The notes below the pieces were generated by a model, which saw nothing but the letters and a program-made list of their open reading frames with translations, ran no database searches and was not told the DNA's origin. Below are positions 32,185-54,818 of a stretch of 64,000 bases of DNA, piece by piece (within the stretch, counting starts at the first letter, position 1; the number at the start of each line of letters is the position of its first letter). The stretch spans positions 16,466 through 80,465 of the forward strand of contig JAFUXG010000035.1 in the NCBI GenBank assembly GCA_017470935.1, read 5' to 3'. Origin of the DNA: Lachnospiraceae bacterium. GTDB lineage: Bacteria; Bacillota; Clostridia; Lachnospirales; Lachnospiraceae. The position numbers and the translations under genes are program-made.

Positions 32185-32471
32185 TTTTCTTCCTTTCCTT
32201 TCTTCTCCGCCATACTTTGTTTTTTAATTATTTTTCGTTCAGCATTTCTTGCTCTCTTCTGTAAAATCCGTTTCTGTTCTCTTATCTGTTTCCTCGTGAC
32301 AGGCTTTGGCTCCTTGACTCCCGCTGCCTCTAAGGCTCTCGGCCAGGGACCTAGGAAGGATTTGATCCGTGCCACCTCCTGCTCCGAAAAATCTGATTTC
32401 TTGGGCAGTCTTCCAAGCTCATAATTTTTTCTCTGAAGCATGCTTATACATTTCTCTTTAGTAAGCACCAT
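32181..32471 (-). CDS. Small HNH-repeat/homing-endonuclease-associated repeat protein
   Basis: 96 residues, very basic. Residues ~15-50 (NYELGRLPKKSDFSEQEVARIKSFLGPWPRALEAAGV) match the helix-turn-helix-like repeat often found beside HNH endonucleases. The remainder is a Lys/Arg/Glu helix. No nuclease motif is present. Its stop overlaps the next gene's ATG by four bases, suggesting translational coupling. It is the first gene after the cobalamin riboswitch and terminator. DNA or RNA binding is likely; why it leads a B12 operon is unclear. Confidence 0.65.
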   Translation of the reverse strand: MVLTKEKCISMLQRKNYELGRLPKKSDFSEQEVARIKSFLGPWPRALEAAGVKEPKPVTRKQIREQKRILQKRARNAERKIIKKQSMAEKKGKEEK

Positions 32472-34335: not shown

Positions 34336-34866
34336 ATGAAATTAGTATCCTATCTTTCCATGTTCCTGATACCCCTTGTAATCTTCTACATCATAGTGTA
34401 TGCCCTTCTAATGAAAAAGCCGGTTTTCGAGCTGTTTCTTAAGGGGGCAAAGCAGGGACTTATAACTGTTGCAGAGATTGCTCCCTCCATCATCGGACTT
34501 CTTGTTGCGGTGGGAATCTTCAGAAGCTCAGGCGCCTTAGACCTTATATGCAAAGGACTTGCATCACTTAAGGGTATACTCCCCTTTCCAATCGAGGTAA
34601 TACCCCTAGCAATACTGAAAATGTTCTCTTCATCAGGTGCTAATGCACTGCTGTTTGACATTTACAGAAGCTATGGCACAGACTCCTACATTGGCTTTAC
34701 CGCATCCCTGCTGCTATGCTGCACGGAAACCCTTTTCTACACGATCTCCATTTACTTCACAAGCGTACAAATCAAAAAGACAAGGTGGGTTATTCCTGCC
34801 GGAATATTCCTCGCCCTTGTCTCTTTGATCTTAAGTGCATGGGTTGCACAAGTGTTTATTTCCTGA
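34336..34866 (+). CDS. spmB: Spore maturation protein B-like
   Basis: 176 residues, about four membrane helices, with family motifs KGAKQGLITVAEIAPSIIGLLVAVGIFR and SGANALLFDIYRSYGTDSYIG. AAAGGAG precedes the ATG, 29 bp after spmA. Its last 11 bases overlap the 3' end of the convergent DUF6273 gene, with no terminator between them. Confidence 0.9.
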   Translation: MKLVSYLSMFLIPLVIFYIIVYALLMKKPVFELFLKGAKQGLITVAEIAPSIIGLLVAVGIFRSSGALDLICKGLASLKGILPFPIEVIPLAILKMFSSSGANALLFDIYRSYGTDSYIGFTASLLLCCTETLFYTISIYFTSVQIKKTRWVIPAGIFLALVSLILSAWVAQVFIS

Positions 34867-37305: not shown

Positions 37306-40300
37306 TTATTTCTTCACCTTAGCCTTCTTACTTAAGCCTTTCTTTACCAGAAGCTTTTTATATGCAGATACCTTTTTCTTTGGCACCTTTACTGTCATTT
37401 TGCTTGATGTCTTTGAAAAAGCATTCTTTCCAACGCTTGAAGCTGTAAGCTTACTTGTATTTATTGTAAACTTGCTAATCTTCTTATCACCATAGAAAGC
37501 CTTCTTGCCTATTTTCTTAACACTCTTGCCTATGGTTACAGTATTAAGCTTCTTACAGTTTGCAAAAGCCTGTGCACCGATCGTTTCAACCTTTGCTCCG
37601 ATTTCCACCTTCTTAAGCTTGCTGCAATTGGCAAATGCACTGTTTCCAACACTGACAATATTGTCACTTATCTTAACTGTTTCTATTGTAGAATTATTTT
37701 TAAATGCATTATTTGCGATCGATGTGACCTGATACGTCACATTATCAATGGTTACCTGTTCAGGTATAACAACCGTCTTTTCTGTATTAGAAGATGACGT
37801 ATTGGAAGCTGCATTGTATTCCACAGTCTGCTTACCTGACGTATCCTCTGTAACATTATAGGTTGCCCCGTCTTCTTTACTAACTATCGTTTCGCCCTTA
37901 GAATGATTGATAGTCTCACCTGTTTCGGTGCTTCCACTTTGGTTGGTATTATCTCCCGTTCCGGTACTTCCACCTGTACTAGTATCATCTCCCGTTCCGG
38001 TACTTCCGCCCGGGTTAGTTCCATCTCCGGTTCCGGTACTTCCGCCTGGGTTAGTTCCATCTCCGGTTCCGGTACCTCCCGCATTGCCATTATCAGGAAT
38101 ATCCTCATATAACGCATACAATGTTATTCCACGTTCACCCATTGTGTATGTGATTTCTGCTTTGTCAGCTTCCTGGAGAGAAGCAGTACTGTTATTCGTC
38201 AGCTTACCATTCCATGCTTTGAATTGCTTTCCCTCCGCCGGGTCATTGGCACGAACCTTTATCATATCACCCGTTGCATAGAAGCCTGAATTTATTTCCT
38301 CCGTAATAGCGGCTCCGTTAACCTCAATGATCATACCATTTTCTACTTGAACCTTATATGCCTTAACATACTCTGCCACAATCTGGGTGTCTCTATCGGT
38401 GGTAGTAACCGTAGTTTCTATCTTAGTTGCATCCTCAATCTCAGCTTTTCCCGAAACCACTGTCCACTTGTCAAATCTTGTGTAATCATCTGCCGGGTCT
38501 GCCTTAATAGCAACCGTCTTTCCTGCCGCATAATAACCGCTAATACTTCCCTGAGAACTACTATCAGCAATTGTTCCTTTTTCAATCACAAGTGCATATG
38601 TAATCTCGGAAACAGTAACCGTAAATTCCTTCTTAACACCCAAATATTCAACAACAACCCGCTGCTCACCTGCTTTATATGGGTTGTAATTCGTATTCCC
38701 GCTGCCCGAAAGTGCCAAAGTAACAGGAGTCTCCCTGTCGGCAAACTTTATCTTAACGGACAGACCGGTCAGATCAAATGCTTCACCATATGCATACTCT
38801 GTCTTTACCGGATTGTCTGCGTCCTCAACAAACTCAACTGATTCAATATCACTTCCTGCCTGCCAGCATAATATTGGCGTCATCCCCTCGTCATTTTCAT
38901 CCACCATGAACCATATACCATTAAAGTCAAATCCACGGTAGGATGATCTCTTCGTCATACCTGCAGCGTCAATAGATTTACTTGTAGAAAGAGACTCCCC
39001 ATTCGGTGTTCCGGTAAGGGTATATGTAACATCGGCTCCGTCCTCACCTGCTCCCTTATCTGTCATCGTCATAGCTGCATATCGGCAATAAGCAACCGGA
39101 ACACTACCATTGGCAATTCCATATACATATCGCTTTTCCGAACCTGACTGGATTCCAATCTGTCCTGACAATGATCCCTTATTATAACAGTACATTATCG
39201 GTCCGGATGCTGTGGATGTGGAATATCCGACTATACCCGCTGCATAGCCGATAGCCTGTGAATTCACCGGTGCACTCAAAGTATATTCATCTAATAATGA
39301 CAACACCATAGTAACCAATCCCAAGTTATCTCCATATCCGGCAGGCAATGTCAGATGTGTTTCAGTGGTTGACCAGCTCTTAACATATCCTGTATTATAG
39401 CAATTCATAACAGCCGTACTCTTGTATAAGGTTCCTACAATACCGCCTGCCATGGTGTCAAAATGAGATGTGACATTAAGATCAAACAACGTATGTTCAT
39501 TGACCATAAGTGCTGCCACCTCTCCGGTATTACAGCATTGCTCCACTGTACCATTCTCCGCTGCAACACCCAATATACCACCAGCCACAACCACATCATC
39601 AGTTCCCTTTAATGCCATTTCAACAAAATCACCCTTTTTTGCAGTATTAAAAATACCTACAAAATTACGATATCCGCTTACAACACCATCATTACTGCAC
39701 TGTGATATTACTCCTCCGTTATTCAGATATCCTGCTATACCACCTATAAATCGCGAACAAGAGCTTGTGGGTGCTTCCTGAGCATTGGAAAGATAACATG
39801 TCTTTACATCGGCAAGCACCTTACATCCACTTACCTTTGCCTTTCCCACATAACCGATAACTCCTCCAATTGAAATATTATTTGTGGAAACTGCCTCATC
39901 AGCCGTCATGGCTGTCATGCCCGACTTTATGATTATGTCTGTAATTTCTGACATATCACCTGAAGCATTCTCATCCACATAACCTGCAAGAGAGCCAACC
40001 CTGACTGAATCGGTTCCTACTTCTATGTCAACATTTTCAAGTGTAAGGTTATTGATAACACCGCCTTTAACTCTGGCAAACAGTCCGATATCCTTATAAG
40101 CTGTATCTCCTTTGATGGATAGTCCGGAGATTGTATGTCCGTTACCATCAAATACTCCGGTAAAACTATCTGCTGAGTAATCTACTGTATCCTCAGCAAC
40201 AATCTTCTTAACACCAATTGGTATGAATCCCCACTCTCCAATATTAACTGCATCCGTTTCCTCGGTAAGACCTGACAGAACAATATCTGCAGTCAGTTTA

Positions 40301-42747
40301 TAACTGCCTGCAAGATCATTTCGTATCTTACTAAGATCGGCAGCACTTCCAATTTCAATAACCTCTTTCGGAGTATCATCATCTGCCTCCGGAACAATTG
40401 GCTCTCCGTCAACAGCCGTCGTCTCACTTCTCCACACCGCTTTCAGAGTAAGCTTTTTGTCTGTTCCCGAAAATACAGGCACATCATTTGTAGCGACAAC
40501 AGAAGCTGTTGTTCCATCGGTACTCCAGCCCACAAATATCTTTCCTTCCTCATTAATTACAGGAAGTGTTCCGTAAGGAAGACCAACATATATGCTCCGG
40601 CTTGCTACCGTAAGCCCCTCTATTCCTGTATCAAATGATATCTCACCCTGACCATCAACCGGCTCAAAGGAAAGAGTCACTGTTTTGGAATCACTATTTT
40701 TTAATGTCTTATTATTTAACTTTTCGTAAAATAGATATGCATTGCCGGAAGCCTTACCAACAATGGTAATTTCAGAAAGAGCCGTCTTATCCAGTGCTCC
40801 CTCATCTACCATAGCTGCCGTATCCGGTATATATATCTTTTCAAGCACCCTATTTCCGGAAATAATCTGTGAACCGATTGTTGTAAGTCCTTCATTGAGC
40901 GTAATAGTCTTCAAGCTGCATGCATTAGAAAACACTTGCTTCGGAAGCTCTTTAACCCCTGCGGGAATATCTATCGCCTGAACAGAAATACAGTCATCAA
41001 AACAGCTCTGACCTATCGTTTCCAAGCTCTCAGGCAATCTTATCTCCGTAAGATTTCTACATCTCTTGAATACATTCTTGTTAAGTGTCACAAGACCTTT
41101 CGGCAATGATACAGACCTAAGCCGCATTGTTTCATTATTTGCTGAACTAAATGCGCCCACACCAATCTCTGTAACTCCATCAGGAATTATTATAGATTCA
41201 AGCGCAAAGCAATCCAAGCACATACTCTGTGGAACAATCGTTACTCCCTTAGGGATATTAAGCTCCATCAAATTATTACATCCTTGGAAAGCACCCGTAT
41301 CTATAACAGTCACGCTATCAGGTATCACTATTTTTGTAATGAATGTCTTGTTCTTGAAACAGCTTGTACTGGCATCGATTTCTGTCACTCCATCGGGAAT
41401 TATCACCACCGACTCATTACCTGTATATTTCTTTAATACGCCCTTGGTAACAGTAAAGTCATTACTTTTTCCTGCATAGATCTCTTCTCCCGGCTCAGCA
41501 GCAGCATTCCACTTTGCATATAAGGTAACTGCGCCGGATTGTATTAAGGTCGTTGTCTTTACCTGCTTCTTTAATGCCTTGTCCGAATACCATCCCGCAA
41601 AATCATAACCTGCAAGCTTTGGAACCGGCATCCATCCGTATGTCTGACCCACAACGCCACTCTTAGTTCTTTCATCTTCCGCAAGAACACCTCCACACGC
41701 ATCAAATGTAATCACTGCATCATCCTTAATCTCAGTGTAAGTAATCGTATCTGTTACTGCTCCAATCTGTCCATAGGATTCCTCACTGGCATTTAACGCC
41801 TTTGTATATTCTTTTGCTATTGAATCTGTTTTTCCTTGTATCTCTTTTATGCCGCTTATTCTTTGAAGTCCCCTGTTATCAAAATATTCGACTGACGTAG
41901 GAATATATATACTTGTCAATGAACCCTTTGCAGGATTACTTCTATTCATTGTATCAAATGCCTGATTATGTATCATTTTCAATGTATCAGGAAGATAAAC
42001 CTTTTCAAGGTTATAATCTCCGCCAAATACATCATTTCCCAAAATAGTAACCCCGGCAGGTATTTTTATTACACTCATACCTATACAATAACTAAATGCT
42101 GAATCACCTATATAATCCAAAGAATCAGGTAGTTCTATAGTTGACAATGCATGGCAATTACGAAATGCCGCATATTGGATCTGTTTTACTCCCTCAGGAA
42201 TATTAATTCTTCCGAGACGCTCACACTCTCCAAAGCACTGCTGTCCCAGCATAGTAACCGTGTCAGGAAGTACCACACTGGTAAGATTAGAACATCCATA
42301 GAACACACTGTTGTCCACCAATGCTATTTTTGTAGCCGACAAATTCACCGACTGTAGATTGGTACAGCCTCTAAATGCATATGCACCTATTGTCTTAACC
42401 CTGTATGAAAAGGATACAGTTGTCAGACCGGTACAGCCATCAAACGCATTCTTATCAATATAGCACACAGAATCCGGCAGATTAATTCTTTCCACTGTTT
42501 CCTTTGTGCTCTTAAATGCGTTTGAGCCAATCTCACGCACCCCATAAGGCACATCTACAATAATATTATTTCCCTTGTAATCCGTGAGCACATCGTCCTC
42601 AATTACAAATCCATTCTCATCTGGTACTGCGGCAGCATTGACGGTCACGGCTTTTCCGTAGGGCGCCAATATGAGCAGCATAAAAACAGCTAACAAGCTA
42701 AGCCGCATAACCATCAGCCTGTCACACATATTTTTTCTTTTCTGCAT
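37306..42747 (-). CDS. Giant BspA-like leucine-rich repeat surface protein
   Basis: 1813 residues from the ATG at 42747 (AGGAGGA upstream). Signal peptide (LSLLAVFMLLILAPYGKAV). Domain order: LRR_5/BspA repeats (~50-320), an InlB B-repeat-like unit ending LYAKW (~350-430), a second LRR block (~440-690), another InlB-like unit (~700-790), a GLUG-type region (LSKIRNDLAGSYKLTADI, GVFDGNGHTISGLSI; ~800-1330), a Big_3-like Ig domain (~1360-1430), B-repeats, a Thr/Gly/Ser linker with tandem repeats (~1560-1640), and a C-terminal LRR with a Lys-rich end. No LPXTG or SLH is seen. The upstream region carries the shared LytTR-like site. Probably a host- or mucus-facing adhesin. Confidence 0.88.
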   Translation of the reverse strand: MQKRKNMCDRLMVMRLSLLAVFMLLILAPYGKAVTVNAAAVPDENGFVIEDDVLTDYKGNNIIVDVPYGVREIGSNAFKSTKETVERINLPDSVCYIDKNAFDGCTGLTTVSFSYRVKTIGAYAFRGCTNLQSVNLSATKIALVDNSVFYGCSNLTSVVLPDTVTMLGQQCFGECERLGRINIPEGVKQIQYAAFRNCHALSTIELPDSLDYIGDSAFSYCIGMSVIKIPAGVTILGNDVFGGDYNLEKVYLPDTLKMIHNQAFDTMNRSNPAKGSLTSIYIPTSVEYFDNRGLQRISGIKEIQGKTDSIAKEYTKALNASEESYGQIGAVTDTITYTEIKDDAVITFDACGGVLAEDERTKSGVVGQTYGWMPVPKLAGYDFAGWYSDKALKKQVKTTTLIQSGAVTLYAKWNAAAEPGEEIYAGKSNDFTVTKGVLKKYTGNESVVIIPDGVTEIDASTSCFKNKTFITKIVIPDSVTVIDTGAFQGCNNLMELNIPKGVTIVPQSMCLDCFALESIIIPDGVTEIGVGAFSSANNETMRLRSVSLPKGLVTLNKNVFKRCRNLTEIRLPESLETIGQSCFDDCISVQAIDIPAGVKELPKQVFSNACSLKTITLNEGLTTIGSQIISGNRVLEKIYIPDTAAMVDEGALDKTALSEITIVGKASGNAYLFYEKLNNKTLKNSDSKTVTLSFEPVDGQGEISFDTGIEGLTVASRSIYVGLPYGTLPVINEEGKIFVGWSTDGTTASVVATNDVPVFSGTDKKLTLKAVWRSETTAVDGEPIVPEADDDTPKEVIEIGSAADLSKIRNDLAGSYKLTADIVLSGLTEETDAVNIGEWGFIPIGVKKIVAEDTVDYSADSFTGVFDGNGHTISGLSIKGDTAYKDIGLFARVKGGVINNLTLENVDIEVGTDSVRVGSLAGYVDENASGDMSEITDIIIKSGMTAMTADEAVSTNNISIGGVIGYVGKAKVSGCKVLADVKTCYLSNAQEAPTSSCSRFIGGIAGYLNNGGVISQCSNDGVVSGYRNFVGIFNTAKKGDFVEMALKGTDDVVVAGGILGVAAENGTVEQCCNTGEVAALMVNEHTLFDLNVTSHFDTMAGGIVGTLYKSTAVMNCYNTGYVKSWSTTETHLTLPAGYGDNLGLVTMVLSLLDEYTLSAPVNSQAIGYAAGIVGYSTSTASGPIMYCYNKGSLSGQIGIQSGSEKRYVYGIANGSVPVAYCRYAAMTMTDKGAGEDGADVTYTLTGTPNGESLSTSKSIDAAGMTKRSSYRGFDFNGIWFMVDENDEGMTPILCWQAGSDIESVEFVEDADNPVKTEYAYGEAFDLTGLSVKIKFADRETPVTLALSGSGNTNYNPYKAGEQRVVVEYLGVKKEFTVTVSEITYALVIEKGTIADSSSQGSISGYYAAGKTVAIKADPADDYTRFDKWTVVSGKAEIEDATKIETTVTTTDRDTQIVAEYVKAYKVQVENGMIIEVNGAAITEEINSGFYATGDMIKVRANDPAEGKQFKAWNGKLTNNSTASLQEADKAEITYTMGERGITLYALYEDIPDNGNAGGTGTGDGTNPGGSTGTGDGTNPGGSTGTGDDTSTGGSTGTGDNTNQSGSTETGETINHSKGETIVSKEDGATYNVTEDTSGKQTVEYNAASNTSSSNTEKTVVIPEQVTIDNVTYQVTSIANNAFKNNSTIETVKISDNIVSVGNSAFANCSKLKKVEIGAKVETIGAQAFANCKKLNTVTIGKSVKKIGKKAFYGDKKISKFTINTSKLTASSVGKNAFSKTSSKMTVKVPKKKVSAYKKLLVKKGLSKKAKVKK
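37925..38080 (-). repeat. Intragenic ~39-bp repeat encoding the Gly/Thr/Ser linker
   Basis: Four to five copies encoding GTGDGTNPGGSTG-type units. The two central copies are almost identical, so linker length may vary between strains. Confidence 0.8.
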
Positions 42748-42844: not shown

Positions 42845-42906
42845 ATCATATCACAGGAAAAAATGCAATAAAATAGACTTGTAATTAATAACGCACACTT
42901 GTAATT
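42845..42906 (-). promoter_or_regulatory. LytTR-like direct repeat and -10 before the giant BspA-like gene
   Basis: On the minus strand AATTACAAGT occurs twice with a 20-base period (42906-42897 and 42886-42877), then exactly 26 bases, then TATGAT (42850-42845). No good -35 is present, as expected for an activated promoter. The same layout occurs at 48772 and 52302. Confidence 0.75.
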
Positions 42907-42969
42907 TTTGACATTTAATAATAGAAAATCTTCTCACCTATCCCATCCAAAACTAATATATGTCATACA

Positions 42970-43069
42970 CTTTTGGACTTAATTTTCGTTTTTTCTGTCC
43001 AAAAGCTTCATTAAATTTCAATTTTTGGATATTTTTAATGTTTATTTTTAGCCAAAAATATTATATAAT
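42970..43069 (+). promoter_or_regulatory. Promoter region with inverted repeats before the second AAA/DUF234 gene
   Basis: A 9-bp inverted repeat CTTTTGGAC/GTCCAAAAG (42970-42978, 42997-43005), a second one (ATTTTTGG near 43020 with CCAAAAAT at 43052) whose right arm lies just before TATAAT (43064-43069). The layout recalls the first AAA/DUF234 gene's promoter. Confidence 0.45.
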
Positions 43070-43113
43070 AACCATAGCATAAAACGATGTGCAAAAGCAT
43101 GGAGGGATCAGAT

Positions 43114-44559
43114 ATGAGCAAGACAAGCATTATTGGCAGAGCGAGTGAATATCGCAAGCTAGAGCGTTGCATGAAAAGTAATGAAGCAGAGCTTGTTGTC
43201 GTATACGGCAGACGTCGTGTTGGAAAGACATTTTTGATAAATTCTTTTTTTGATGAAACATTCAGCTTCTACCTGACAGGAGTATGTGGTCAGCCCCTTA
43301 ATATTCAGCTTTTTAATTTTATAGCCGAGCTTAACAACAAGACCCGTTCAGAACACGATGTCCCTAATAATTGGATGGAAGCATTTCTTCTACTTAGAGA
43401 GTATATCGAAGCTCTTCCCGACACTGAGAAGCAAGTATTCTTTTTTGACGAGATGCCATGGATGGATACCCCGCGTTCCGATTTTGTTGCAGCCTTTGAG
43501 TGGTTCTGGAATTCATGGGGCTGTCGCAGGAGTAATCTGATATTCATTGCGTGCGGCTCGGCAACTTCCTGGATGGTTGATAATATTGACCGCAACAAAG
43601 GCGGGCTATTTAACAGAGCCACCTTAAGATTATATCTTAGACCATTTAATCTTAATGAGACAGAGGAATTTCTTATATCCAAAGGAATTGAATGGTCTAA
43701 ATACACAATTGTTGAGTGCTACATGATAATGGGCGGAATACCATATTATCTTAAGCAGCTTAACCCTGAACTTACCTTCCACAGGAATATTGACAGCTTA
43801 TTCTTCACTGAAAAATCAGGCCTATGGGATGAGTTCAACCATCTCTATCAGACATTATTTACAAACAGCACACAGTATATTATGATAGTTGAGGCTTTGA
43901 GCAGCAAGAAGATTGGTCTTACAAGAAATGAGATAATTAAAGCGACAGGAATTCCAAGCAACGGCAATCTCACTACTATTCTAAATAACCTTGAGTATTC
44001 AGGTTTTATACGAATCTCTAATAATTTCGGTATGAAAAAGAATAATGTGATATACCAACTGTCAGACTACTATACTGCATTTTATTTTAACTTTATTCAT
44101 AACAAGCCAGGGATTGATCAGCATTATTGGTCAAATGCCTTAGACAATCCTTCAAAAAGAACATGGGGAGGTCTTACATTTGAACAGGTATGCTATGACC
44201 ATATCCCCCAGATAAAAATGAAACTAGGTATCTCCGGTGTATTGTCAGAAATCTCCACATGGAAGAAGAAGGGAACAAATTCAGAAAAAGGAGCCCAGAT
44301 AGACCTTGTTATAGACAGAAGGGATAATGTCATTAACCTATGCGAGATAAAGTACTCTATGAATGAATATACAATAACAAAGGATTACGACATGCTTCTA
44401 AGAAACAAAACCGAAGCCTTCCGAAGTGATACAAAAACCAAAAGCGCTCTTCATCCTACAATGATCACAACATACGGCATCAAGAAGAACAAATACAGCA
44501 GTTATATAGTAAAACAGATCACTTTGGAAGATCTGTTCAAGGAAGCAGAGGAAATGTAA
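43114..44559 (+). CDS. AAA ATPase with DUF234-type nuclease-like C-terminus (paralogue)
   Basis: 481 residues from the ATG at 43114 (GGAGGGA upstream). Walker A YGRRRVGKTFL, Walker B VFFFDEMPWMDTPRSDF, sensor region FIACGSATSWM. A winged-helix segment (IGLTRNEIIKATGIPSNGNLTTIL) precedes a C-terminal PD-(D/E)XK-like pattern (QIDLVIDRRDNVINLCEIKYSMNEY). Roughly half of its residues look identical to 16975-18411, including LFNRAT/LYGRVT and PWMDTP. It sits alone on the plus strand among minus-strand surface genes, as expected for an independently acquired gene. Function unknown. Confidence 0.82.
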   Translation: MSKTSIIGRASEYRKLERCMKSNEAELVVVYGRRRVGKTFLINSFFDETFSFYLTGVCGQPLNIQLFNFIAELNNKTRSEHDVPNNWMEAFLLLREYIEALPDTEKQVFFFDEMPWMDTPRSDFVAAFEWFWNSWGCRRSNLIFIACGSATSWMVDNIDRNKGGLFNRATLRLYLRPFNLNETEEFLISKGIEWSKYTIVECYMIMGGIPYYLKQLNPELTFHRNIDSLFFTEKSGLWDEFNHLYQTLFTNSTQYIMIVEALSSKKIGLTRNEIIKATGIPSNGNLTTILNNLEYSGFIRISNNFGMKKNNVIYQLSDYYTAFYFNFIHNKPGIDQHYWSNALDNPSKRTWGGLTFEQVCYDHIPQIKMKLGISGVLSEISTWKKKGTNSEKGAQIDLVIDRRDNVINLCEIKYSMNEYTITKDYDMLLRNKTEAFRSDTKTKSALHPTMITTYGIKKNKYSSYIVKQITLEDLFKEAEEM

Positions 44560-44689
44560 TCACAGAGGTTCGGAGTGTCCGTTGATATGTCATACCACAC
44601 CCTCAAACAATACCTTATCGCCTACATTTACACTCTCAACGCCTGATTTCTTATTCAGAATACATTTTTACAAAGAAATAAAGACAAGT

Positions 44690-44735
44690 GTGAGGAGATG
44701 ATTCCCACAGGAATCCTCCTCCTCCATTCTTCACA
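44690..44735. other. Intergenic hairpin between convergent genes
   Basis: GAGGAG..GATTCC pairs with GGAATC..CTCCTC around a short loop (44692-44722), with outer TGTGA/TCACA. No T run of note on either strand; a weak terminator at best. The rest of 44560-44784 shows nothing else. Confidence 0.4.
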
Positions 44736-44784
44736 TGTACTATAATGCTTGTAATTATTGATTTCTTTTAATTATCATTTAATA

Positions 44785-45747
44785 TCAGTATACCGATATT
44801 TCACTTATACACGTATCATCATATTTAGTTCCAGCAACCGCGCCTGTAATAGTTATTGTTATTTGATCTGTTGATATTGGTTCATTACATGTTATCTTGC
44901 AAAGACACTTTTCTTCTATATCCCCACTCTCCGATACATCATCCCCTTCATCTATATAAGACATATCATAGTCAAAAACCCTATCATTTCCAAAATCCAC
45001 CTTAACAGATGAAACCTTTCCGTTCTTATAATAGGTCTCCCAATCCTTTGTGTACCCATTAACAATATCAATACAATTAATCAATTTTTTCTCGCTGAAA
45101 TGTATTGTGATGGTTTCTCCAACACCGGTTCCCGAAACACCATCAGCCCATGCTGTGCTGTAATCACCATCTATCATATTATCTGCACTATAAGTTCCAT
45201 AATCATCGGTGAGATAAGATGATGCCTCAATACCGGAAGGATATATTCTCTTAATAATCTCTAATATTGTGTATTTATATGAATAGGTTCCGTCTCCTCC
45301 TTCAAATTCAAGAACAAACTCATCCCCTACTGTTTTATACATAGCCTTTCCAACATTCTCATCCAATTCCGCAGGTGATAACTCATAATCACACTGTTGA
45401 AATTCAAAAGTATCATATGCCACTTCAAAACTAGTTTCACCCATATCAGTCCAGTCCTGATTAGTCGCTCCCTTAATCATCTGCTGATAGGATACTCTGA
45501 TGGTATCTCCATAGTCCACATATATCGATTTTTCATAATTTTCCTGCGTTATCTCATCTTCCGTCATCTCGTCTTGCGTTTCTGATTCTTCGGTTCTCTC
45601 AGTGGTAATTTCCTCTCCTTCTGTTGTCATTTCTTCCTCCGATGATATACCACTGGCAGACCAGGAATCTGAGGAATCTTCTCCACAGCCTGCAAGACCT
45701 GCCACAGCCAATGTAGTTATCATCAGTCCAAACAATAATTTTTTCAT
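44785..45747 (-). CDS. Lipoprotein with discoidin-like (NADase-type glycan-binding) domain
   Basis: 320 residues. Lipobox LAGC with cysteine near residue 21, then a Glu/Thr/Ser-rich spacer to ~75. The middle (~75-165) is a strand-rich unassigned domain. The C-terminal ~150 residues match the discoidin-like glycan-binding domain (YPSGIEASSYLT, YSADNMIDGDYSTAWADG, GETITIHFSEKKLINCIDIVNGY). RBS AAGGAG. A surface lipoprotein that probably binds carbohydrate. It is 112 bp downstream of the large zinc-ribbon membrane protein gene and may share its transcript. Confidence 0.78.
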   Translation of the reverse strand: MKKLLFGLMITTLAVAGLAGCGEDSSDSWSASGISSEEEMTTEGEEITTERTEESETQDEMTEDEITQENYEKSIYVDYGDTIRVSYQQMIKGATNQDWTDMGETSFEVAYDTFEFQQCDYELSPAELDENVGKAMYKTVGDEFVLEFEGGDGTYSYKYTILEIIKRIYPSGIEASSYLTDDYGTYSADNMIDGDYSTAWADGVSGTGVGETITIHFSEKKLINCIDIVNGYTKDWETYYKNGKVSSVKVDFGNDRVFDYDMSYIDEGDDVSESGDIEEKCLCKITCNEPISTDQITITITGAVAGTKYDDTCISEISVY

Positions 45748-45859
45748 GATCTTATTCTCCTTATTTTATGTAGACGAAAGGCTCCATATGTTTTTCACAT
45801 CATAGAACTCCCTGCATACATTAATAACTCTCTGTATCCTTTAAATACTCTTGTAATTA

Positions 45860-48232
45860 TTACTCCTCACCAATAAGTGCATCATATGCTTCATACACAT
45901 CAGTGTAAGCGCCTTGAATAGGAATCCATACACCATTATCAAAGTTTCCGAAAGAGTCATAAAAGGATAGAAATTCTGACCGCGACACATCGTCACCATT
46001 TACAACAAAAGACATATCATCTCCATATTCCGAGTCTGAATAGCTATAGGATGAACAATCTCCCAAAATCTCACCCTTCCCATTTTCAAATGTAAAAAAC
46101 GAATATCCCGTAACATCCCCCGAAGGACTTTGGATAATTCTCCCGGTAGAAGTTGATTTTATAAATTGGACACTTTCCACAAAATACAATTCCTCATAAA
46201 AACTTACTATCTCTCCATTCTTATATGTCATTATCTCAAAATCACCATTTTCACTATTGTAGATACATTCAGGAATTTTATCATTATCTAAGTAAGCCAG
46301 ATTGCAGACTATCTCTGATTCAAGGTTTCCGATATACTCATCATATGCAGCTATTGCCTGACTGACATTTGCCGTCTCCGAGCCTTCCCTATACCACGTT
46401 CTTCCTTCCACCATCCTGCTTCCCCTATCAAGGTAGAAATATTCCAGCTCATCGCCATTCAATGTGTATATAAATGCATCATATCCTGTAAAAACATCAT
46501 ATTCTTCATATGCCTGACTGATATCGCCATGGTACGGGAATATGTATTTCAAAGTATCCTTTCCGTCATACAGGCATGTAAAATCACCGGAAAATATTGA
46601 CCGATCCTCTTTTGTGTCATATATAAGACCTCTATTAGAATCCAACTCCAATTCCAGAGTATCACCGCCATACACACCAACCCACTTACCTTGGAAGCTG
46701 TTAAGCACATCCTCAGAAATCCCGCTGTTGCTTTTTTTAAAAGAAAAATTCAATTCAGGTTCATCATTATAGCTTTTATAGACAACATCAATATTATCCT
46801 TATCCTTAATGTTAAATTGTATCCGGGACTCATCATTTAAAATACCTGTTCCCTCAATTTTCTTGTCACCAACATTCAAATCAAATGCGTCGGGGAAAAC
46901 CACATCTTCAAATGTGCTGTATATGACAAACTGATCTGAGCCCCTAAAATTATCAAATCCGATATACATTCCTGCACCATCTGCCTGCCAATAACCTGCA
47001 ATAGAAGAATTGTTATCTACAAGTCTTGCATAACTAAGCTCGGACTGTACATCCTCCGTTTTAACCTTTTCACCGCCGCTGCCCTTATCACCTGTTTTGT
47101 ACGACTCGTCTAATTTAGGATACATGACCCATTCATCCAGGTAATTGTCTGATGCAACGAATACATTTATAACATTTTGAGAAGCGTTTAGATATAATGC
47201 AAAATCCCGTCCACCGAATCTGGTATTATAAACCTCCGGTATCTCGCCCACCAGTTCCTTTATCTCATCCTGAAAACTTTGGGGGAGATTGGGAAGCTCA
47301 TCCCTAAGAACAAAATATACCCCGCCATATACATGCATAGCATCATATACCTTTTGGTTTGAAAGAGCCGTCTGTATTGCCGAAGCAATATGTGAGCCGT
47401 TTTCAGCATCCTTCCCTGCCGCCAAATTGATCATCAGATCCATGCCATCCGGCAGAATATACCATCTCCCGTCAACCTTATACATGAACATTTCCGTATT
47501 GTCAGACATTTTCACAAGACTGACATCCGAATATTTCATCTTAATACTCATATCCTCTAACAGAAGATCAAAATATTTTTTAAGCTTATCATCTCCGTGG
47601 TTCTTTTCCGCAATCTTAAGAGACTCAACGTCTTTTCCACTGAAAAATTCGTCCAGATGAGGCCCCAAATCGATACTGTTATTAGAAAGGTATTTTTCAA
47701 ATGCCTCCGTATCCGACTTAGGGATCATAAGTGAAACCACCTTATCTCTTGATCTATTGGTAAAGGCTTTGGCAAATCTGCTCCATATCTTTTCCTGATT
47801 TCCTACAGTAAAGGCAGATACGATCAATACTATTGCAACACATGCCACAAGTATCGACCCACAGACAATGACCTTTTTCTTATTAGCCTTAAGCTTATTA
47901 ACAAATTCATCTAACTTTGGCTTCATCTTTTCACCGGCAGCCCTGCTCTTTTCCTTTGCGTCCCCCGCCAGCTTTTTGCTTGTCTTTTTTGCCACCTCAG
48001 CAAATACCTTACTTTTCTCCTTCGTTATTCCTGCTAATTCCTTGCTCTTTTCCTTAGTTGACTCTGCTATCTGCTTACCTGTTTCCCTGGCACTTTCAAG
48101 CTTTTCCTGATATTGAATCTTTCTCTCGTCCCGTTTTCTTTTTTTGATAATTTCTTCGTCTACCTTTGAACCACAAAATTCACAAAAGACCGAATCATCA
48201 AGAATCTCTTTTCCACACACTTTACATATCAT
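45860..48232 (-). CDS. Zinc-ribbon, single-pass membrane protein with large extracellular region
   Basis: 790 residues. An N-terminal double CxxC zinc ribbon (CKVCG, CEFCG), a Lys/Glu/Ala coiled segment to ~110, one transmembrane helix (VIVCGSILVACVAIVLIVSAF), then ~640 extracytoplasmic residues. That part has a helical first portion and, in the second half, strand-rich segments (WVGVYGGDTLELELDSN, YIFPYHGD). No named family is recognised for it. The zinc-ribbon plus single-helix head recurs in Firmicutes envelope proteins next to Ser/Thr kinase systems. It is 45 bp downstream of the smaller zinc-ribbon gene and probably in its LytTR-controlled operon. Confidence 0.7.
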   Translation of the reverse strand: MICKVCGKEILDDSVFCEFCGSKVDEEIIKKRKRDERKIQYQEKLESARETGKQIAESTKEKSKELAGITKEKSKVFAEVAKKTSKKLAGDAKEKSRAAGEKMKPKLDEFVNKLKANKKKVIVCGSILVACVAIVLIVSAFTVGNQEKIWSRFAKAFTNRSRDKVVSLMIPKSDTEAFEKYLSNNSIDLGPHLDEFFSGKDVESLKIAEKNHGDDKLKKYFDLLLEDMSIKMKYSDVSLVKMSDNTEMFMYKVDGRWYILPDGMDLMINLAAGKDAENGSHIASAIQTALSNQKVYDAMHVYGGVYFVLRDELPNLPQSFQDEIKELVGEIPEVYNTRFGGRDFALYLNASQNVINVFVASDNYLDEWVMYPKLDESYKTGDKGSGGEKVKTEDVQSELSYARLVDNNSSIAGYWQADGAGMYIGFDNFRGSDQFVIYSTFEDVVFPDAFDLNVGDKKIEGTGILNDESRIQFNIKDKDNIDVVYKSYNDEPELNFSFKKSNSGISEDVLNSFQGKWVGVYGGDTLELELDSNRGLIYDTKEDRSIFSGDFTCLYDGKDTLKYIFPYHGDISQAYEEYDVFTGYDAFIYTLNGDELEYFYLDRGSRMVEGRTWYREGSETANVSQAIAAYDEYIGNLESEIVCNLAYLDNDKIPECIYNSENGDFEIMTYKNGEIVSFYEELYFVESVQFIKSTSTGRIIQSPSGDVTGYSFFTFENGKGEILGDCSSYSYSDSEYGDDMSFVVNGDDVSRSEFLSFYDSFGNFDNGVWIPIQGAYTDVYEAYDALIGEE

Positions 48233-48277
48233 ATTATTTCTCCTTTGAAATACCTATTCCCGCCAAATGCATAACAC

Positions 48278-48727
48278 TTAAGATCTGCTCTTTCCACAGT
48301 TTCCACATACTTGAGCAGACATATCCTCATTCGCAGTACCGCAAAACCTGCAATACCATACCTCTATATCTTTCTTTGTCTCTCTTTCCTTTTCATATTC
48401 GGCAGCTATCTTTGAAAGATCAAATTCCGGGTTTGAAAAATGCTGTGCCTTAGAAGTCAGTCCACTAGTTTGACGTGTAGCACCCGGGGCGACGGGCTTT
48501 CCTGTTTTCAAAGTCTCTCTAATATCCATCACATTATTACATAGTTCCACAAAAAGTCCGAAGAAGAATACCAGTAAAAGACCGACAACCAGAGCCAAAA
48601 GGAATATCAGCAAACCTACTCCTCCATCATCCAGTCCAATTCCGAAGGTAAGTCCAAGACCTATCGCCGCCAAGACAATCACTACCTCAAAAAATATTAA
48701 TACTCCCCTTGCCATTCTCGTAAACAT
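48278..48727 (-). CDS. Small two-helix membrane protein with C-terminal zinc ribbon
   Basis: 149 residues; start at 48727, eight bases from AAGGAGG (an ATG two codons earlier is too close). Two hydrophobic segments (~5-30 and ~38-60), a polar linker, and a C-terminal ribbon WYCRFCGTANEDMSAQVCGNCG. First gene of the operon behind the direct-repeat promoter at 48772. Function unknown; it shares the zinc-ribbon theme with the gene after it and with the FHA protein at 50516. Confidence 0.65.
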   Translation of the reverse strand: MFTRMARGVLIFFEVVIVLAAIGLGLTFGIGLDDGGVGLLIFLLALVVGLLLVFFFGLFVELCNNVMDIRETLKTGKPVAPGATRQTSGLTSKAQHFSNPEFDLSKIAAEYEKERETKKDIEVWYCRFCGTANEDMSAQVCGNCGKSRS

Positions 48728-48771
48728 ATTCATATCCTCCTTATTATGTGCACAACACATTTGCTATGCGC

Positions 48772-48833
48772 ATCATACCACAATGGAAAATATGTTAGAA
48801 TAGACTTGTAATTAATAACATGCACTTGTAATT
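48772..48833 (-). promoter_or_regulatory. LytTR-like direct repeat and -10 before the zinc-ribbon operon
   Basis: AATTACAAGT twice with a 20-base period (48833-48824, 48813-48804), 26 bases, then TATGAT (48777-48772), all on the minus strand. Almost identical to the site at 42845, including flanking TGTCAAAAATTACAAGTG. Confidence 0.75.
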
Positions 48834-48842
48834 TTTGACATT

Positions 48843-48886
48843 AAAACCCCTTTCATCAGACTTATCTATTGCCTGACAAAAGGGGC
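48843..48886 (-). terminator. Intrinsic terminator of the kinase operon
   Basis: CCCCTTT/AAAGGGG outer stem with CAG/CTG pairs inside, followed on the minus strand by TTTTAA; it begins a few bases after the kinase stop. Confidence 0.75.
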
Positions 48887-48893
48887 GTAGCTT

Positions 48894-50528
48894 CTATTCT
48901 ATATTCAAATGCTCTACCGAATCCTCCTCATGGATTTTGATTGACTCAGCAGTTGATCTTTCTATATTTTTCTTCTGCTTATTCACAGTGGTTTGTTCCT
49001 GTGTCGTTACCCTGGCAGCGTCTTTCGTATCCTCCGAATTTGCAGAACCTGTACCCGTCTTCTTCCCTGCTGTTGTATCACCCACATCATGAATTGTGGA
49101 TTGCTCTGTTGTACTCGTCGGTACAGAATCATTTCCCCTTGTATCTAAACCCTCCGCTGCATTCTCCTCAATATCATTACCCTGTATATTCGTTGTATTT
49201 CGCTCAATATCATCACTTTGTCCTTCTGACGCCTTATAAGCTCCTTCGGTCTTGGAAGAACTCTCCTCCATATCTTGCAAAGCTCCGTTCTGAACTTCAT
49301 CCTTCTGCTCTCTTTGCTCTGCGATCAGCACACCTACGATTGCCGAAAGAACCAGCACAAGCATAAGACTTACTGCTGCAAGCACCAGTGGCAATCTTCT
49401 TCGCAATGCGTTTGTCTGTATATGATTCTTTATCAGCTCTGTATCTCCCTCTGCAATTTGACTTCCCATTACAGTAACATCATGCTCAATCGACGGCGCA
49501 ACGGTCAGTGCCTCATAGAACTCCTCCATATTGGAATACCGTTCATCCACAGCAAGCGCAAGTCCTGTAAGTATCGCCTTTGCCTGCCATGGAAGAACAC
49601 GCTCAGATCCTGAGGATTCATTATAACTATTCAAGGGCTGTTCATTACTACTGCCTGTAAGCATTGCATATAATTCTTCCCCTGTTTGTTTCTCTCCACG
49701 CTGCAGGCGCTCAACCGTATCAATGGGCGCTCTGCCTGTTATTCCCATATACAGCGTTGCCGCAAGTCCATACACATCTGTCCATGCACCAAGCCTTCCA
49801 CCCTCAATATATTGCTCCGGCGGCGCGTAGCCCGTCTTGAGGATTACTGTTTTCCCGAAGTGACTGTCATATCTCTGCTCTTTTTCACAATTTTCAAGCG
49901 TTCCTTTACTTGATATTTCATGTGTTTCATATACTATACTGTCATCCCCGCTCTCAGCATTATTAAATATATTATTTCCATTAACAAGTCCCGCTGCCCC
50001 AAAGTCAATAAGCCTCGCCTTATTATCAAGCCCTATGATTATATTATCCGGGCTTATATCTCTGTGAATAACGCCATGTCTGTGAATCTGAATAAGCGCT
50101 CTCATAACAGGTGATATAAGAGACACCAGTTCATTATATGTAAGTACTCCCTGACCGTCCACATACTCCTTAAGAGTAATTCCCTCTATATATTCCATGA
50201 CAATATATGCTGTATCATTTTCTTCAAAGCACTCATATACTGACGCGATTCCGTCTAAATGCTGAAACTGCCTAAGCACCTCTGCCTCCTTGACAAATCT
50301 GCGCTTTCCCGTATCAAACTTATCCTTTGTCTCCGAAAAAATATGAAGCCTGCCCCTTTCACGCACAGCAAAAGAAGACGGAAAATACTCCTTAACTGCC
50401 ACAGTCCTTCCGTCTTTATTCCTTCCCATATATGTTATTCCAAAACCACCCTCGCCAAGCACCGACACTATCTCATATTGTCCGATAAGTACAGTACCCT
50501 GGGGCAGTGTTCTACTCATTTTTTCCAT
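48894..50528 (-). CDS. Ser/Thr protein kinase, membrane-anchored
   Basis: 544 residues. Kinase domain (~15-350): glycine loop LGEGGFGITYMG, ATP-binding Lys in VAVKEYFP, catalytic loop HRDISPDNII, LIDFGAAG in place of DFG+G, and PPEQY. A transmembrane helix (~378-402) is followed by a ~140-residue Thr/Ser/Glu/Asp-rich extracellular tail with no PASTA domains. The start may instead be the ATG at 50519, which overlaps the upstream stop as ATGA. It forms an operon with the FHA protein and the LytTR-FHA regulator and would supply the phosphothreonines their FHA domains read. Confidence 0.88.
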   Translation of the reverse strand: MEKMSRTLPQGTVLIGQYEIVSVLGEGGFGITYMGRNKDGRTVAVKEYFPSSFAVRERGRLHIFSETKDKFDTGKRRFVKEAEVLRQFQHLDGIASVYECFEENDTAYIVMEYIEGITLKEYVDGQGVLTYNELVSLISPVMRALIQIHRHGVIHRDISPDNIIIGLDNKARLIDFGAAGLVNGNNIFNNAESGDDSIVYETHEISSKGTLENCEKEQRYDSHFGKTVILKTGYAPPEQYIEGGRLGAWTDVYGLAATLYMGITGRAPIDTVERLQRGEKQTGEELYAMLTGSSNEQPLNSYNESSGSERVLPWQAKAILTGLALAVDERYSNMEEFYEALTVAPSIEHDVTVMGSQIAEGDTELIKNHIQTNALRRRLPLVLAAVSLMLVLVLSAIVGVLIAEQREQKDEVQNGALQDMEESSSKTEGAYKASEGQSDDIERNTTNIQGNDIEENAAEGLDTRGNDSVPTSTTEQSTIHDVGDTTAGKKTGTGSANSEDTKDAARVTTQEQTTVNKQKKNIERSTAESIKIHEEDSVEHLNIE

Positions 50529-51025
50529 ATACTGCCTGCCTCAATAAATGTAAGGCTGCATTCTCCAAGCCGAATCACGTCTCTGTCAGACAATTCCTTT
50601 GTACCGTCAATGAGTTCATCATTAAGAATAACCTGCTTTGTCCAGTCCATATGTTTAAGAACATATCTATCATCTGTATACTCTATGATCGCATGCTGCT
50701 TGCGTGATACGGTGGGCTCTGCCGTTAGTGCCACATCCATATTGGAGCTTCTTCCGATAGAATTGCTTCCCTCCTTAAGAAGAAATCCGGCACCTGTCAT
50801 CTCGCCCTCCGTTACCACCAGCATACCGACTGCCCTCTTCTTAATCGACGCTCCTACCTCTGCTCCTATTGCCAGCTCAGCAAGCGCTGTCTCCACATCC
50901 GACTGGTTTCTGCCAAAGGTATCTGACGGCTCCTGTCCCGCAAGATTAAGCTTTGAACAATGCGGGCAGCTTCGAAATTTCTCTGCATTATAGATATGTC
51001 CGCTTTCACATTTTGTAAGCTGCAT
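50516..51025 (-). CDS. FHA-domain protein with N-terminal zinc ribbon
   Basis: 169 residues; RBS AGAGGTAGG. A zinc-knuckle start (CESGHIYNAEKFRSCPHC) and a C-terminal FHA domain (~75-165) with the phosphothreonine-binding pattern SIGRSSNMDV, SRKQHAIIEY and the later VILNDELIDG. It lies directly upstream of, and overlaps, the kinase gene. This is the usual partner arrangement for kinase-FHA signalling. Confidence 0.85.
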   Translation of the reverse strand: MQLTKCESGHIYNAEKFRSCPHCSKLNLAGQEPSDTFGRNQSDVETALAELAIGAEVGASIKKRAVGMLVVTEGEMTGAGFLLKEGSNSIGRSSNMDVALTAEPTVSRKQHAIIEYTDDRYVLKHMDWTKQVILNDELIDGTKELSDRDVIRLGECSLTFIEAGSIWKK

Positions 51026-51124
51026 TATACCTACCTCTTTATAAACTCGTAGCTTCCACAGATATACGCTCTGTTTCCTAATTACTCTCTTATCACACCG
51101 ATATAATACTCATATCAACATGAA

Positions 51125-52213
51125 TCATCCCAGCTTATACACTACACTCTTATCACCAAACATCAGCATTGCACCCGGCTTGATAATATACGTCTTATCC
51201 CTCTCCAGCCTTACATCTCCATCAGTAAATGTACCATTAGAAGAACAATCCGTGACCTCGTATGTATTACTTTTCTCATGATAAATGACTATACAATGCT
51301 TTCTGCTTACAAGGGGAAGATTGACTATCATGTCTGCACTGCTTCCGTCCCGGCCCACAATAATCTCCTGCTCAGGCACAACCCTCACTATCCTTCCAAG
51401 GTATTCACCCCTGATACACACCAGCGCTCCCCTTGTGTCATACTGCTGAAACAATCCTGAAGTAAGATAGAAATGCTCATCCTCTCTCTTATCTGAAATC
51501 TCATCAACAGGCATATATTCGGTCTCTTCAAGTGCCGCTTTCACATTATCCTTATATCGTCTGCTGACCGGTATCGCATACTCTCCCACCTTGAGCATCT
51601 GTCCGTCATATACGGTTGTATGCTCCTTTGACACAAGATAGCTCTGATGACACCTGAAAAACCCTTGATTCTTTAGTGCCTCTGCCAGATTATCAAGTTT
51701 GTCATAATACTCGTATTCCTTGTTAAAAGTATGCACTATTATCTTACGATATTTGCTCTCAAGATACAAGATAGTATCTAAGGGAATTCTTGTGATTTCA
51801 CTGCGGTTTTTGATGTTGAGAAATTTGGGATTTAATCTGATCTCCTTAATATAACGGCTGATCTCACTTTCCAGATCGCGCTCCACCATGGGCTTTAATA
51901 TGTATGCAAATGCCCTCTGCTTAAAGCATTCAAAGACGTGCTCCCTAGACGCCGTTACAAATATGATATCCGTATCCACATTATGCTTATGCATAAATGC
52001 TGCAAGCTCCGGACCGGATTCATTTTTCTGATAAATATCCATAAAAAGCAGATTGCAGTTAAAGCTTCCATCCTTGATCGCCTGTATCACACTTCCGCTG
52101 TCCTCAAATATAACAGCCTCCCATCTGGCATATTCAAGCATAATCTCTTCAAGTATTTTCACAAGCCGATCCACAAACCCGCTATCCATATCACAAATGC
52201 CAATCCGAAACAT
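51125..52213 (-). CDS. REC-LytTR-FHA fusion response regulator
   Basis: 362 residues; GAGGAGA precedes the ATG. Receiver domain ~1-125 with Asp59 in LLFMDIY and Lys in YILKPM. LytTR DNA-binding domain ~145-240 (RIPLDTILYLESKYRKIIVHT, FFRCHQSYLVS, IPVSRRYKDNVKAAL). FHA domain ~275-355 (IIVGRDGSSADMIVN, VSRKHCIVIY, DCSSNGTFTDG). REC-LytTR is standard (AgrA type); a C-terminal FHA is unusual and implies docking to a phosphothreonine. It is first in the operon with the FHA protein and Ser/Thr kinase, and its own promoter carries the period-20 direct repeat, so it probably autoregulates. Confidence 0.9.
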   Translation of the reverse strand: MFRIGICDMDSGFVDRLVKILEEIMLEYARWEAVIFEDSGSVIQAIKDGSFNCNLLFMDIYQKNESGPELAAFMHKHNVDTDIIFVTASREHVFECFKQRAFAYILKPMVERDLESEISRYIKEIRLNPKFLNIKNRSEITRIPLDTILYLESKYRKIIVHTFNKEYEYYDKLDNLAEALKNQGFFRCHQSYLVSKEHTTVYDGQMLKVGEYAIPVSRRYKDNVKAALEETEYMPVDEISDKREDEHFYLTSGLFQQYDTRGALVCIRGEYLGRIVRVVPEQEIIVGRDGSSADMIVNLPLVSRKHCIVIYHEKSNTYEVTDCSSNGTFTDGDVRLERDKTYIIKPGAMLMFGDKSVVYKLG

Positions 52214-52301
52214 TCTTCTATCTCCTCAGTTCTTTTGTATTTGATAAATGTTAAGAGTTGGATAAATTAATAATCTACTCTTATTTGTCACTGTATTTCG
52301 T

Positions 52302-52363
52302 ATAATACCATAAATAATATAAATCTCCAAAGGACTTGTAATTATTAACATGCACTTGTCATA
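52302..52363 (-). promoter_or_regulatory. LytTR-like direct repeat and -10 before the REC-LytTR-FHA gene
   Basis: TATGACAAGT (52363-52354) and AATTACAAGT (52343-52334), period 20, then 26 bases, then TATTAT (52307-52302) on the minus strand. The upstream half is diverged; spacing to the -10 is identical to the other two sites. Confidence 0.7.
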
Positions 52364-54780: not shown

Positions 54781-54818
54781 GAGTAAAGTAGTTATGTATT
54801 TTAAGGAGGATGCCTTCT

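Follow-up and report, generated by a model that had tools for sequence, protein, structure and literature searches.

Three promoters with a shared tandem repeat in a Lachnospiraceae genome and their probable control by a REC-LytTR-FHA regulator

The window analyzed here, a stretch of 64,000 nucleotides from a Lachnospiraceae bacterium of the gut (assembly GCA_017470935.1, contig JAFUXG010000035.1, positions 16,466 to 80,465 of the forward strand), carries the same tandem direct repeat before three minus-strand promoters. They precede a giant BspA-like leucine-rich repeat (LRR) surface protein, an operon of zinc-ribbon proteins, and a regulator with REC, LytTR, and FHA domains (P0001). The locus raises the question of which protein reads these repeats, in which direction it acts, and which signal it answers to. 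Judged from sequence comparison, the repeats are quite likely to be the binding sites of P0001 in a positive-feedback LytTR regulon of surface proteins with an input by threonine phosphorylation.

A preliminary description of this DNA had reported the three repeats, and they are real and lie where it placed them. The minus-strand pattern AATTACAAGT-N10-AATTACAAGT occurs exactly at 42877-42906 and 48804-48833 and with 2 mismatches at 52334-52363, with 0 matches in 100 shuffles of the sequence. A scan of the window's own genome (G000; assembly of 3.06 Mb in 75 contigs, 78% complete) for the tandem pattern with up to 3 mismatches returned the three window sites and one poorer match with 3 mismatches, with 0 matches for the reversed pattern. 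The stretch of that fourth match (L259) held no motif match above 18 bits. A looser pattern of 27 bases, again allowing up to 3 mismatches, recovered the same three sites in G000 (1, 1, and 2 mismatches) beside 3 control matches, while across 26 genomes of the genus it stayed at noise level, with 30 matches against 27 in the reversed control. The tandem and its 20-base period stand as first described, but the unit is longer than the ten bases given then: the half-site, about GTTAW-N3-TTACA-AGT, spans 16 bases of the period. The sites and their -10 elements are as follows, with scores from a motif trained without G000.

42877..42912, minus strand: site 1, half-sites GTCAAAAATTACAAGT/GTTATTAATTACAAGT, period 20, 29.8 bits
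48804..48839, minus strand: site 2, half-sites GTCAAAAATTACAAGT/GTTATTAATTACAAGT, period 20, 27.8 bits
52334..52369, minus strand: site 3 (autoregulatory), half-sites GTTAATTATGACAAGT/GTTAATAATTACAAGT, period 20, 25.2 bits
42845..42853, minus strand: extended -10 of promoter 1, TGATATGAT, read from the sequence
48772..48780, minus strand: extended -10 of promoter 2, TGGTATGAT, read from the sequence
52302..52310, minus strand: extended -10 of promoter 3, TGGTATTAT, read from the sequence

The published LytTR consensus is [TA][AC][CA]GTTN[AG][TG]. Compared with it, site 3 has GTTAAT twice and sites 1 and 2 have GTCAAA/GTTATT, while the regulator promoters of G003-G005 depart from it. LytTR-type sites consist of two repeats at a period of about 20-22 bases, and the period was 20 in G000 and 20 or 21 in relatives. 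With very little doubt, the three tandems are predicted to be LytTR sites.

Their placement, just upstream of a weak -35, is also that of a LytTR site. By hand count, the second repeat stands exactly 26 bases from the -10 hexamers TATGAT (42850-42845), TATGAT (48777-48772), and TATTAT (52307-52302). This distance, described earlier as fixed, holds for all three window promoters but drifts between 23 and 26 bases among relatives. The poor -35 was confirmed by hand count at a 17-base spacer, where TTTTAT, TTCTAA, and TTGGAG were found, respectively. As a refinement, TGN precedes the -10 at all three G000 promoters, making each an extended -10. A sigma-70 scan listed promoter 3 (9 of 12, 16-base spacer) and not promoters 1 and 2; it gave 56 promoter-like sites for the region and 37 for its shuffles.

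The genes downstream, all on the minus strand, are listed below.

51125..52213, minus strand: regulator P0001 with REC (25-118), LytTR (139-228, FFRCHQS motif), and FHA (284-353), from Pfam, PDB relatives, and alignment
50516..51025, minus strand: FHA-domain protein with a Cys-rich N-terminus, from Pfam
48894..50528, minus strand: Hanks-type Ser/Thr kinase with the motifs GEGGFG, VAVK, HRDISPDN, and DFG, a single hydrophobic segment (by eye), and a tail rich in Ser and Thr, from Pfam and sequence
48278..48727, minus strand: 149-residue protein, N-terminal part hydrophobic (by eye), with a C-terminal CxxC..CxxC zinc-ribbon-like motif (DUF7577 below cut-off)
45860..48232, minus strand: 790-residue protein with an N-terminal zinc ribbon (Pfam Zn_Ribbon_1) and a hydrophobic stretch (by eye)
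44785..45747, minus strand: 320-residue lipoprotein-like protein (by eye) with a NADase_transloc F5/8-type C domain, from Pfam
37306..42747, minus strand: giant BspA-like surface protein of 1813 residues with LRR_5, List_Bact_rpt, and Big_3 domains, from Pfam; ATG at 42747 with AGGAGG upstream
34856..37225, minus strand: DUF6273-fn3 protein, from Pfam, 80 bases past the BspA-like gene

Pfam agrees with the downstream genes named earlier, including the REC-LytTR-FHA identity of the regulator. Promoter 3 would drive an operon of the regulator, the FHA protein, and the Hanks kinase, and promoter 2 the zinc-ribbon operon ending in the NADase_transloc protein, as judged from strand and spacing; promoter 1 would serve the BspA-like protein. 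The start of the latter was placed at ATG 42747 and not at the listed 42849, because 42849 falls inside the -10. The DUF6273-fn3 gene is possibly co-transcribed with it, and 48727 is most likely the start of the first gene of the zinc-ribbon operon.

The assignment of the sites to P0001 was addressed by comparison within the genus. Relatives of P0001 (E at most 1e-30) were found in 17 of the 26 genomes, with 36 matches in total. The upstream 350 bases were inspected for 27 of the 36, and nine, P0001 included, carry a diverged tandem. In eight other genomes, it stands at a period of 20 or 21 and 23-26 bases before the -10 of the P0001 orthologue's own gene, and the tandem thereby presents itself as a phylogenetic footprint of P0001. 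These nine promoters served to train a gapped weight matrix, which was applied to 707 kb of selected genomic stretches and gave 30 matches above 20 bits, against 0.7 expected by first-order simulation. They comprise the nine training sites, one place doubled, and 20 further places, of which three (L117, L118, and L128) come from stretches chosen by pattern, two are window sites 1 and 2, and 15 come from regulator neighborhoods only. In a reversed-sequence control, 2 matches passed 20 bits over the 707 kb, and none did over stretches of 281 kb and 294 kb; since the better of the two reached 24.9 bits, single matches of 20-25 bits are not proof. Leave-one-out scores of the nine training sites were 22-40 bits. 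Among 24 million positions simulated at second order, none scored above 19.3, to be compared with the scores of the window sites listed above. Among the 15 LytTR genes of G000, only the P0001 locus exceeded 17 bits (36.5; next 16.8), the other 14 loci having been covered over 2.5-3.3 kb each, and the site is confined in G000 to the P0001 promoter and its neighbors. The preliminary description had proposed a LytTR regulon under its own regulator. The footprint, the leave-one-out scores, and the single LytTR locus among 15 support its assignment of the sites, which P0001 very likely uses at all three promoters.

Site identity was compared for 19 sites in the seven genomes with a P0001 orthologue and at least two sites; sites outside these genomes were not counted, nor was the rpoB copy described below. 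It was 0.78 within genomes and 0.61 between them; the corresponding values were 0.42 and 0.38 for spacers and 0.29 and 0.30 for upstream stretches. Shared selection on the site, and not recent copying of whole promoters, would explain this pattern. A covariance model of the regulator promoters (R1; 150 candidates scored per genome) was discarded as a regulon finder. It performed poorly, because the variable spacer was modelled, with E values of 0.005 for site 2 and 0.34 for site 1.

Wider relatives were taken from an alignment-based contig search (80 of 202 kept); a contig search with the single protein gave no match. Of 26 named fusion loci, eight carry a training site, five another site in the same orientation, and three an opposite-strand site only; two of the five precede a LytTR-only gene located before the regulator. 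A test outside the training set covered 25 named loci. In nine of them (L142, L143, and L145-L151) the fusion stands in one frame and is followed by an FHA gene or an early contig end. Three of these full fusions are preceded, within 900 bases, by a site in the same orientation (20.8, 28.3, and 47.2 bits) and three, at close range, by a site on the opposite strand; L149 (about 350 bases available), L150, and L151 (16.0 bits) showed no site above 20 bits upstream. G000 itself encodes a second REC-LytTR-FHA regulator (C18:37919-38977, L048), which is 35% identical to P0001, has a degraded REC pocket, and also lies beside kinase, FHA, and LRR genes, without a recognizable site.

In the mechanism that these data suggest, two LytTR domains would occupy the two half-sites, two helical turns apart and just upstream of the poor -35. 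Bound P0001 would recruit RNA polymerase to a promoter otherwise dependent on its extended -10 and would turn on its own operon, the zinc-ribbon operon, and the giant BspA-like surface protein. Activation from the sites by P0001, the part of the earlier proposal that goes beyond site assignment, is probable on these grounds.

For the signal, the domains of P0001 and its neighbors were examined. Its LytTR domain matched Pfam LytTR at 1.6e-19 and AgrA (PDB 3bs1) at 6.5e-6, and its sequence relatives in the PDB were AgrA 3bs1 and the FHA protein 5yyx. The residues GR, S-R-x-H, and NG, which are the conserved phospho-peptide residues of FHA domains, are kept in 17 of 17 aligned regulators. A related kinase gene lies near the regulator in 20 of the 26 named fusion loci, and two of the six misses (L147 and L150) end within 600 bases of the regulator. 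An FHA domain with phospho-peptide residues is thus combined with a linked kinase, as in EmbR. In Butyribacter intestini (L167:106-13092), REC-LytTR and FHA are encoded by two adjacent genes, and around them lie three Hanks kinases, of which one carries PASTA, together with several FHA proteins and zinc-ribbon proteins. This is the window module in unfused form, and it provides a Rosetta-stone argument for coupling. At L175:133-2271, a polyphosphate kinase gene was observed ahead of two Hanks kinases and a REC-LytTR/FHA pair that is split.

Relatives of GHKL histidine kinases, the only histidine kinase type searched for, were found in none of 47 fusion loci (32 distinct places, 15 fetched twice), the window included, and in none of 28 other FHA-linked or partial LytTR-FHA loci. 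They were found in 19 of 26 non-FHA LytTR loci, all 19 matched by a query from another locus. As the queries were GHKL only and came from ten of the 26 non-FHA loci, divergent or other histidine kinases could be missed. A smaller comparison found GHKL relatives in 18 of 19 chosen non-FHA loci, 10 of them query sources. Of the 26 non-FHA loci, the seven with no match were L182-L185, L190, L205, and L206. At L182-L185, a Ser/Thr kinase gene lies near the non-FHA REC-LytTR gene instead, perhaps as a third arrangement of LytTR and Hanks kinase. At the P0001 operon, the co-encoded Hanks kinase would phosphorylate threonine and the FHA domains would read the phospho-threonine, most likely rather than a histidine kinase acting via REC; on present indications the balance leans towards such a Ser/Thr-kinase input to P0001.

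Several observations weigh against this reading as a whole. The phospho-acceptor Asp is kept in 16 of 17 aligned regulators, P0001 included, and a distant histidine kinase is therefore possible. G001 has a second class of site, unlike its regulator's own. G021 keeps a near-identical site (34.5 bits) before a broken surface-protein gene, with the regulator operon missing. That place (L117:8800-12100, G021:C8) is syntenic with the window, with decarboxylase, tmk, holB, PSP1, and methylase genes of 76-95% identity; no regulator, FHA, or kinase gene was found there, and a 68-residue NADase_transloc remnant is present. No upstream site above 20 bits was found at 10 of the 26 named fusion loci, and at 16 further test loci, most of which encode REC-LytTR and FHA separately, upstream scores reached 12.0 at most. 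Lone matches below 25 bits are weak, among them one agrB site and the WXG100 site described below. Because G000 is 78% complete, a LytTR gene not seen here or further targets may exist.

The alternative that holds up best is an ordinary two-component regulator with a histidine kinase encoded at another place in the genome, which would leave the kinase and FHA proteins as bystanders. In its favor, the REC domain of P0001 keeps Asp59, Thr87, and Lys107, but the second acid of the pocket is Met in P0001 (DMD) and in G019, where the acceptor is Glu, and the acidic pair is lost in L048, L049, and L053. As the GHKL search found no histidine kinase beside the regulator at any fusion locus, and FHA is fused to the regulator or encoded beside it, this arrangement is considered unlikely, though deserving of attention. 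A less probable alternative is that the sites belong to another LytTR regulator of G000, for example the C18 paralogue or one outside the assembly, and that P0001 is a target and not the master. The 15 LytTR genes with their second fusion paralogue, the two site classes of G001, and the G021 site in a genome whose best P0001 relative is 35% identical would all fit. This is nonetheless improbable, since the other 14 LytTR loci have no site above 17 bits, the site is conserved before the P0001 orthologue itself across genomes, and its variants are more alike within a genome than between genomes.

That P0001 acts as a repressor or binds a silent site, with negative autoregulation, is very improbable: the sites stand just before a poor -35 and the promoters have an extended -10, a layout similar to that of LytTR activators (PMC6193735) and VirR (PMC2838878). 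Finally, the idea that a single promoter was recently copied to give all three, with no need for a shared regulator, is hardly credible; both half-sites are the same in sites 1 and 2, but identity in G000 falls from 0.90 within sites to 0.45 in spacers and 0.30 upstream though the distance to the -10 is kept, so that the promoters are not simply copies, and diverged site versions are kept in other genomes.

Under control by P0001 and its relatives, predicted targets can be read from the genes after non-training sites. BspA-like LRR proteins occur there in the window, in a three-gene G019 operon after L115:821, at L128, at L118 and L119 of G001, and at L143. Other such genes encode secreted proteins with fn3, Big_2, GLUG, or PPC domains, a lipoprotein, and LytTR-only proteins, several of the last preceding a REC-LytTR-FHA gene. 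The orthologue cluster of G019 repeats the three-part layout of the window, and a site variant specific to G019 precedes the regulator, the three-gene BspA-like operon, and a lipoprotein operon in which the third and last gene encodes a zinc-ribbon and NADase_transloc protein. The G019 site also recurs as a 36-base copy ahead of an rpoB-like gene (L115:8809, by eye; 14.9 bits); this copy has no -10 at the usual distance, was not counted as a target, and is possibly a stray one. WYL-type regulators were likewise not taken as targets (L045 with 22.1 bits and L044 with 14.9 bits; only the product of L045 was scanned with Pfam). In G025 (L046:305-11466), LytTR and REC-LytTR-FHA genes lie among BspA-like LRR genes and an FHA-FtsK (EssC-like) gene, with a weak 24.9-bit site before a WXG100 gene; a link of the circuit to type VII secretion is possible in this genome.

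The motif also precedes two agrB genes, at L263 (29.2 bits; a stretch chosen by its R1 score) and L212 (24.9 bits), and related tandems at non-FHA LytTR loci gave 9 matches above 20 bits in 294 kb. Because it is found before agrB genes and at several non-FHA loci, the motif class would seem to be shared by LytTR proteins generally, with individual regulators differing in detail. Tandem GACAAAAATGACA-type half-sites were observed at three non-FHA LytTR/histidine kinase loci (L203:7942, L204:8045, and L208:7804), each, by eye, near an inverted repeat TGTCA-N4-TGACA. Close to the LRR genes of the window, a small protein with homing-endonuclease-associated repeats (32181-32471) and an AAA_14/DUF4143 ATPase (54810-56126) are encoded.

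AgrA, VirR, and SilA have histidine-kinase partners and are not known to carry an FHA domain; nor is ComE, whose Hanks kinase gene is not known to lie in its operon. With the first three the window shares direct repeats upstream of regulated promoters (PMC4227749, PMC2838878, PMC2766830). The SilA repeats are of 10 bases with an 11-base spacer, and one base more or less between them abolished activity (PMC2766830), while the VirR boxes share one face of the helix immediately before the -35 (PMC2838878). The FhRhHRS motif reads FFRCHNS in AgrA and FFRCHQS in P0001 (PMC4227749). The targets differ, being toxins, bacteriocins, or agr in these descriptions and BspA-like LRR proteins in the window. 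The LytTR Regulatory Systems of S. mutans (HdrRM and BrsRM) have 9-base direct repeats 11-13 bases apart and 4-11 bases upstream of the -35, and TGN precedes the -10 in three of the five operons of Table 2 (PMC6193735). As there, a LytTR regulator is predicted to act on its own operon through direct repeats, but HdrRM and BrsRM combine a membrane-inhibitor partner with a regulator that has no REC (PMC6193735), while the window has a REC and FHA regulator with Ser/Thr kinase and FHA partners. The P0001 operon is accordingly not the two-gene operon of membrane inhibitor and REC-less regulator that defines these systems.

On the side of the kinase, the mycobacterial EmbR requires its C-terminal FHA domain for phosphorylation by the Hanks kinase PknH (PMC4601284). 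EmbR has OmpR-type (SARP-type) DNA-binding and BTA domains, neither of which is present in P0001, where REC-LytTR stands instead. In S. pneumoniae, phosphorylation of ComE by StkP at Thr128 increases its binding to DNA, independently of ComE's histidine kinase (PMC6010298). There, too, a LytTR response regulator is paired with a Hanks kinase, but ComE has a cognate histidine kinase (PMC6010298).

The type of site and its logic were already known, while the REC-LytTR-FHA/kinase arrangement with its predicted BspA-like regulon is a new variation on them. The kinase/FHA input, on which the preliminary description made no comment, is the less ordinary part of the system. Gut bacteria commonly carry BspA-like LRR surface proteins; to our knowledge, little is known of their control. 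A literature search, to which most subscription papers were closed, found no LytTR regulator with an FHA domain and no LytTR control of BspA-like LRR proteins. With about even chances, the Lachnospiraceae may hold a class of LytTR systems free of histidine kinases, in which a membrane Hanks kinase would phosphorylate threonines and the fused FHA domain would read them and set dimerization on the two-turn repeat, locking on the regulator's own operon and a lineage-specific set of BspA-like proteins and, in some species, a type VII secretion locus. The system would join Hanks kinase/FHA and LytTR signaling in one polypeptide and one operon. It offers a concrete, testable switch with defined sites for BspA-like surface proteins, and kinase-to-promoter signaling in this group would be directly testable on three short promoters.

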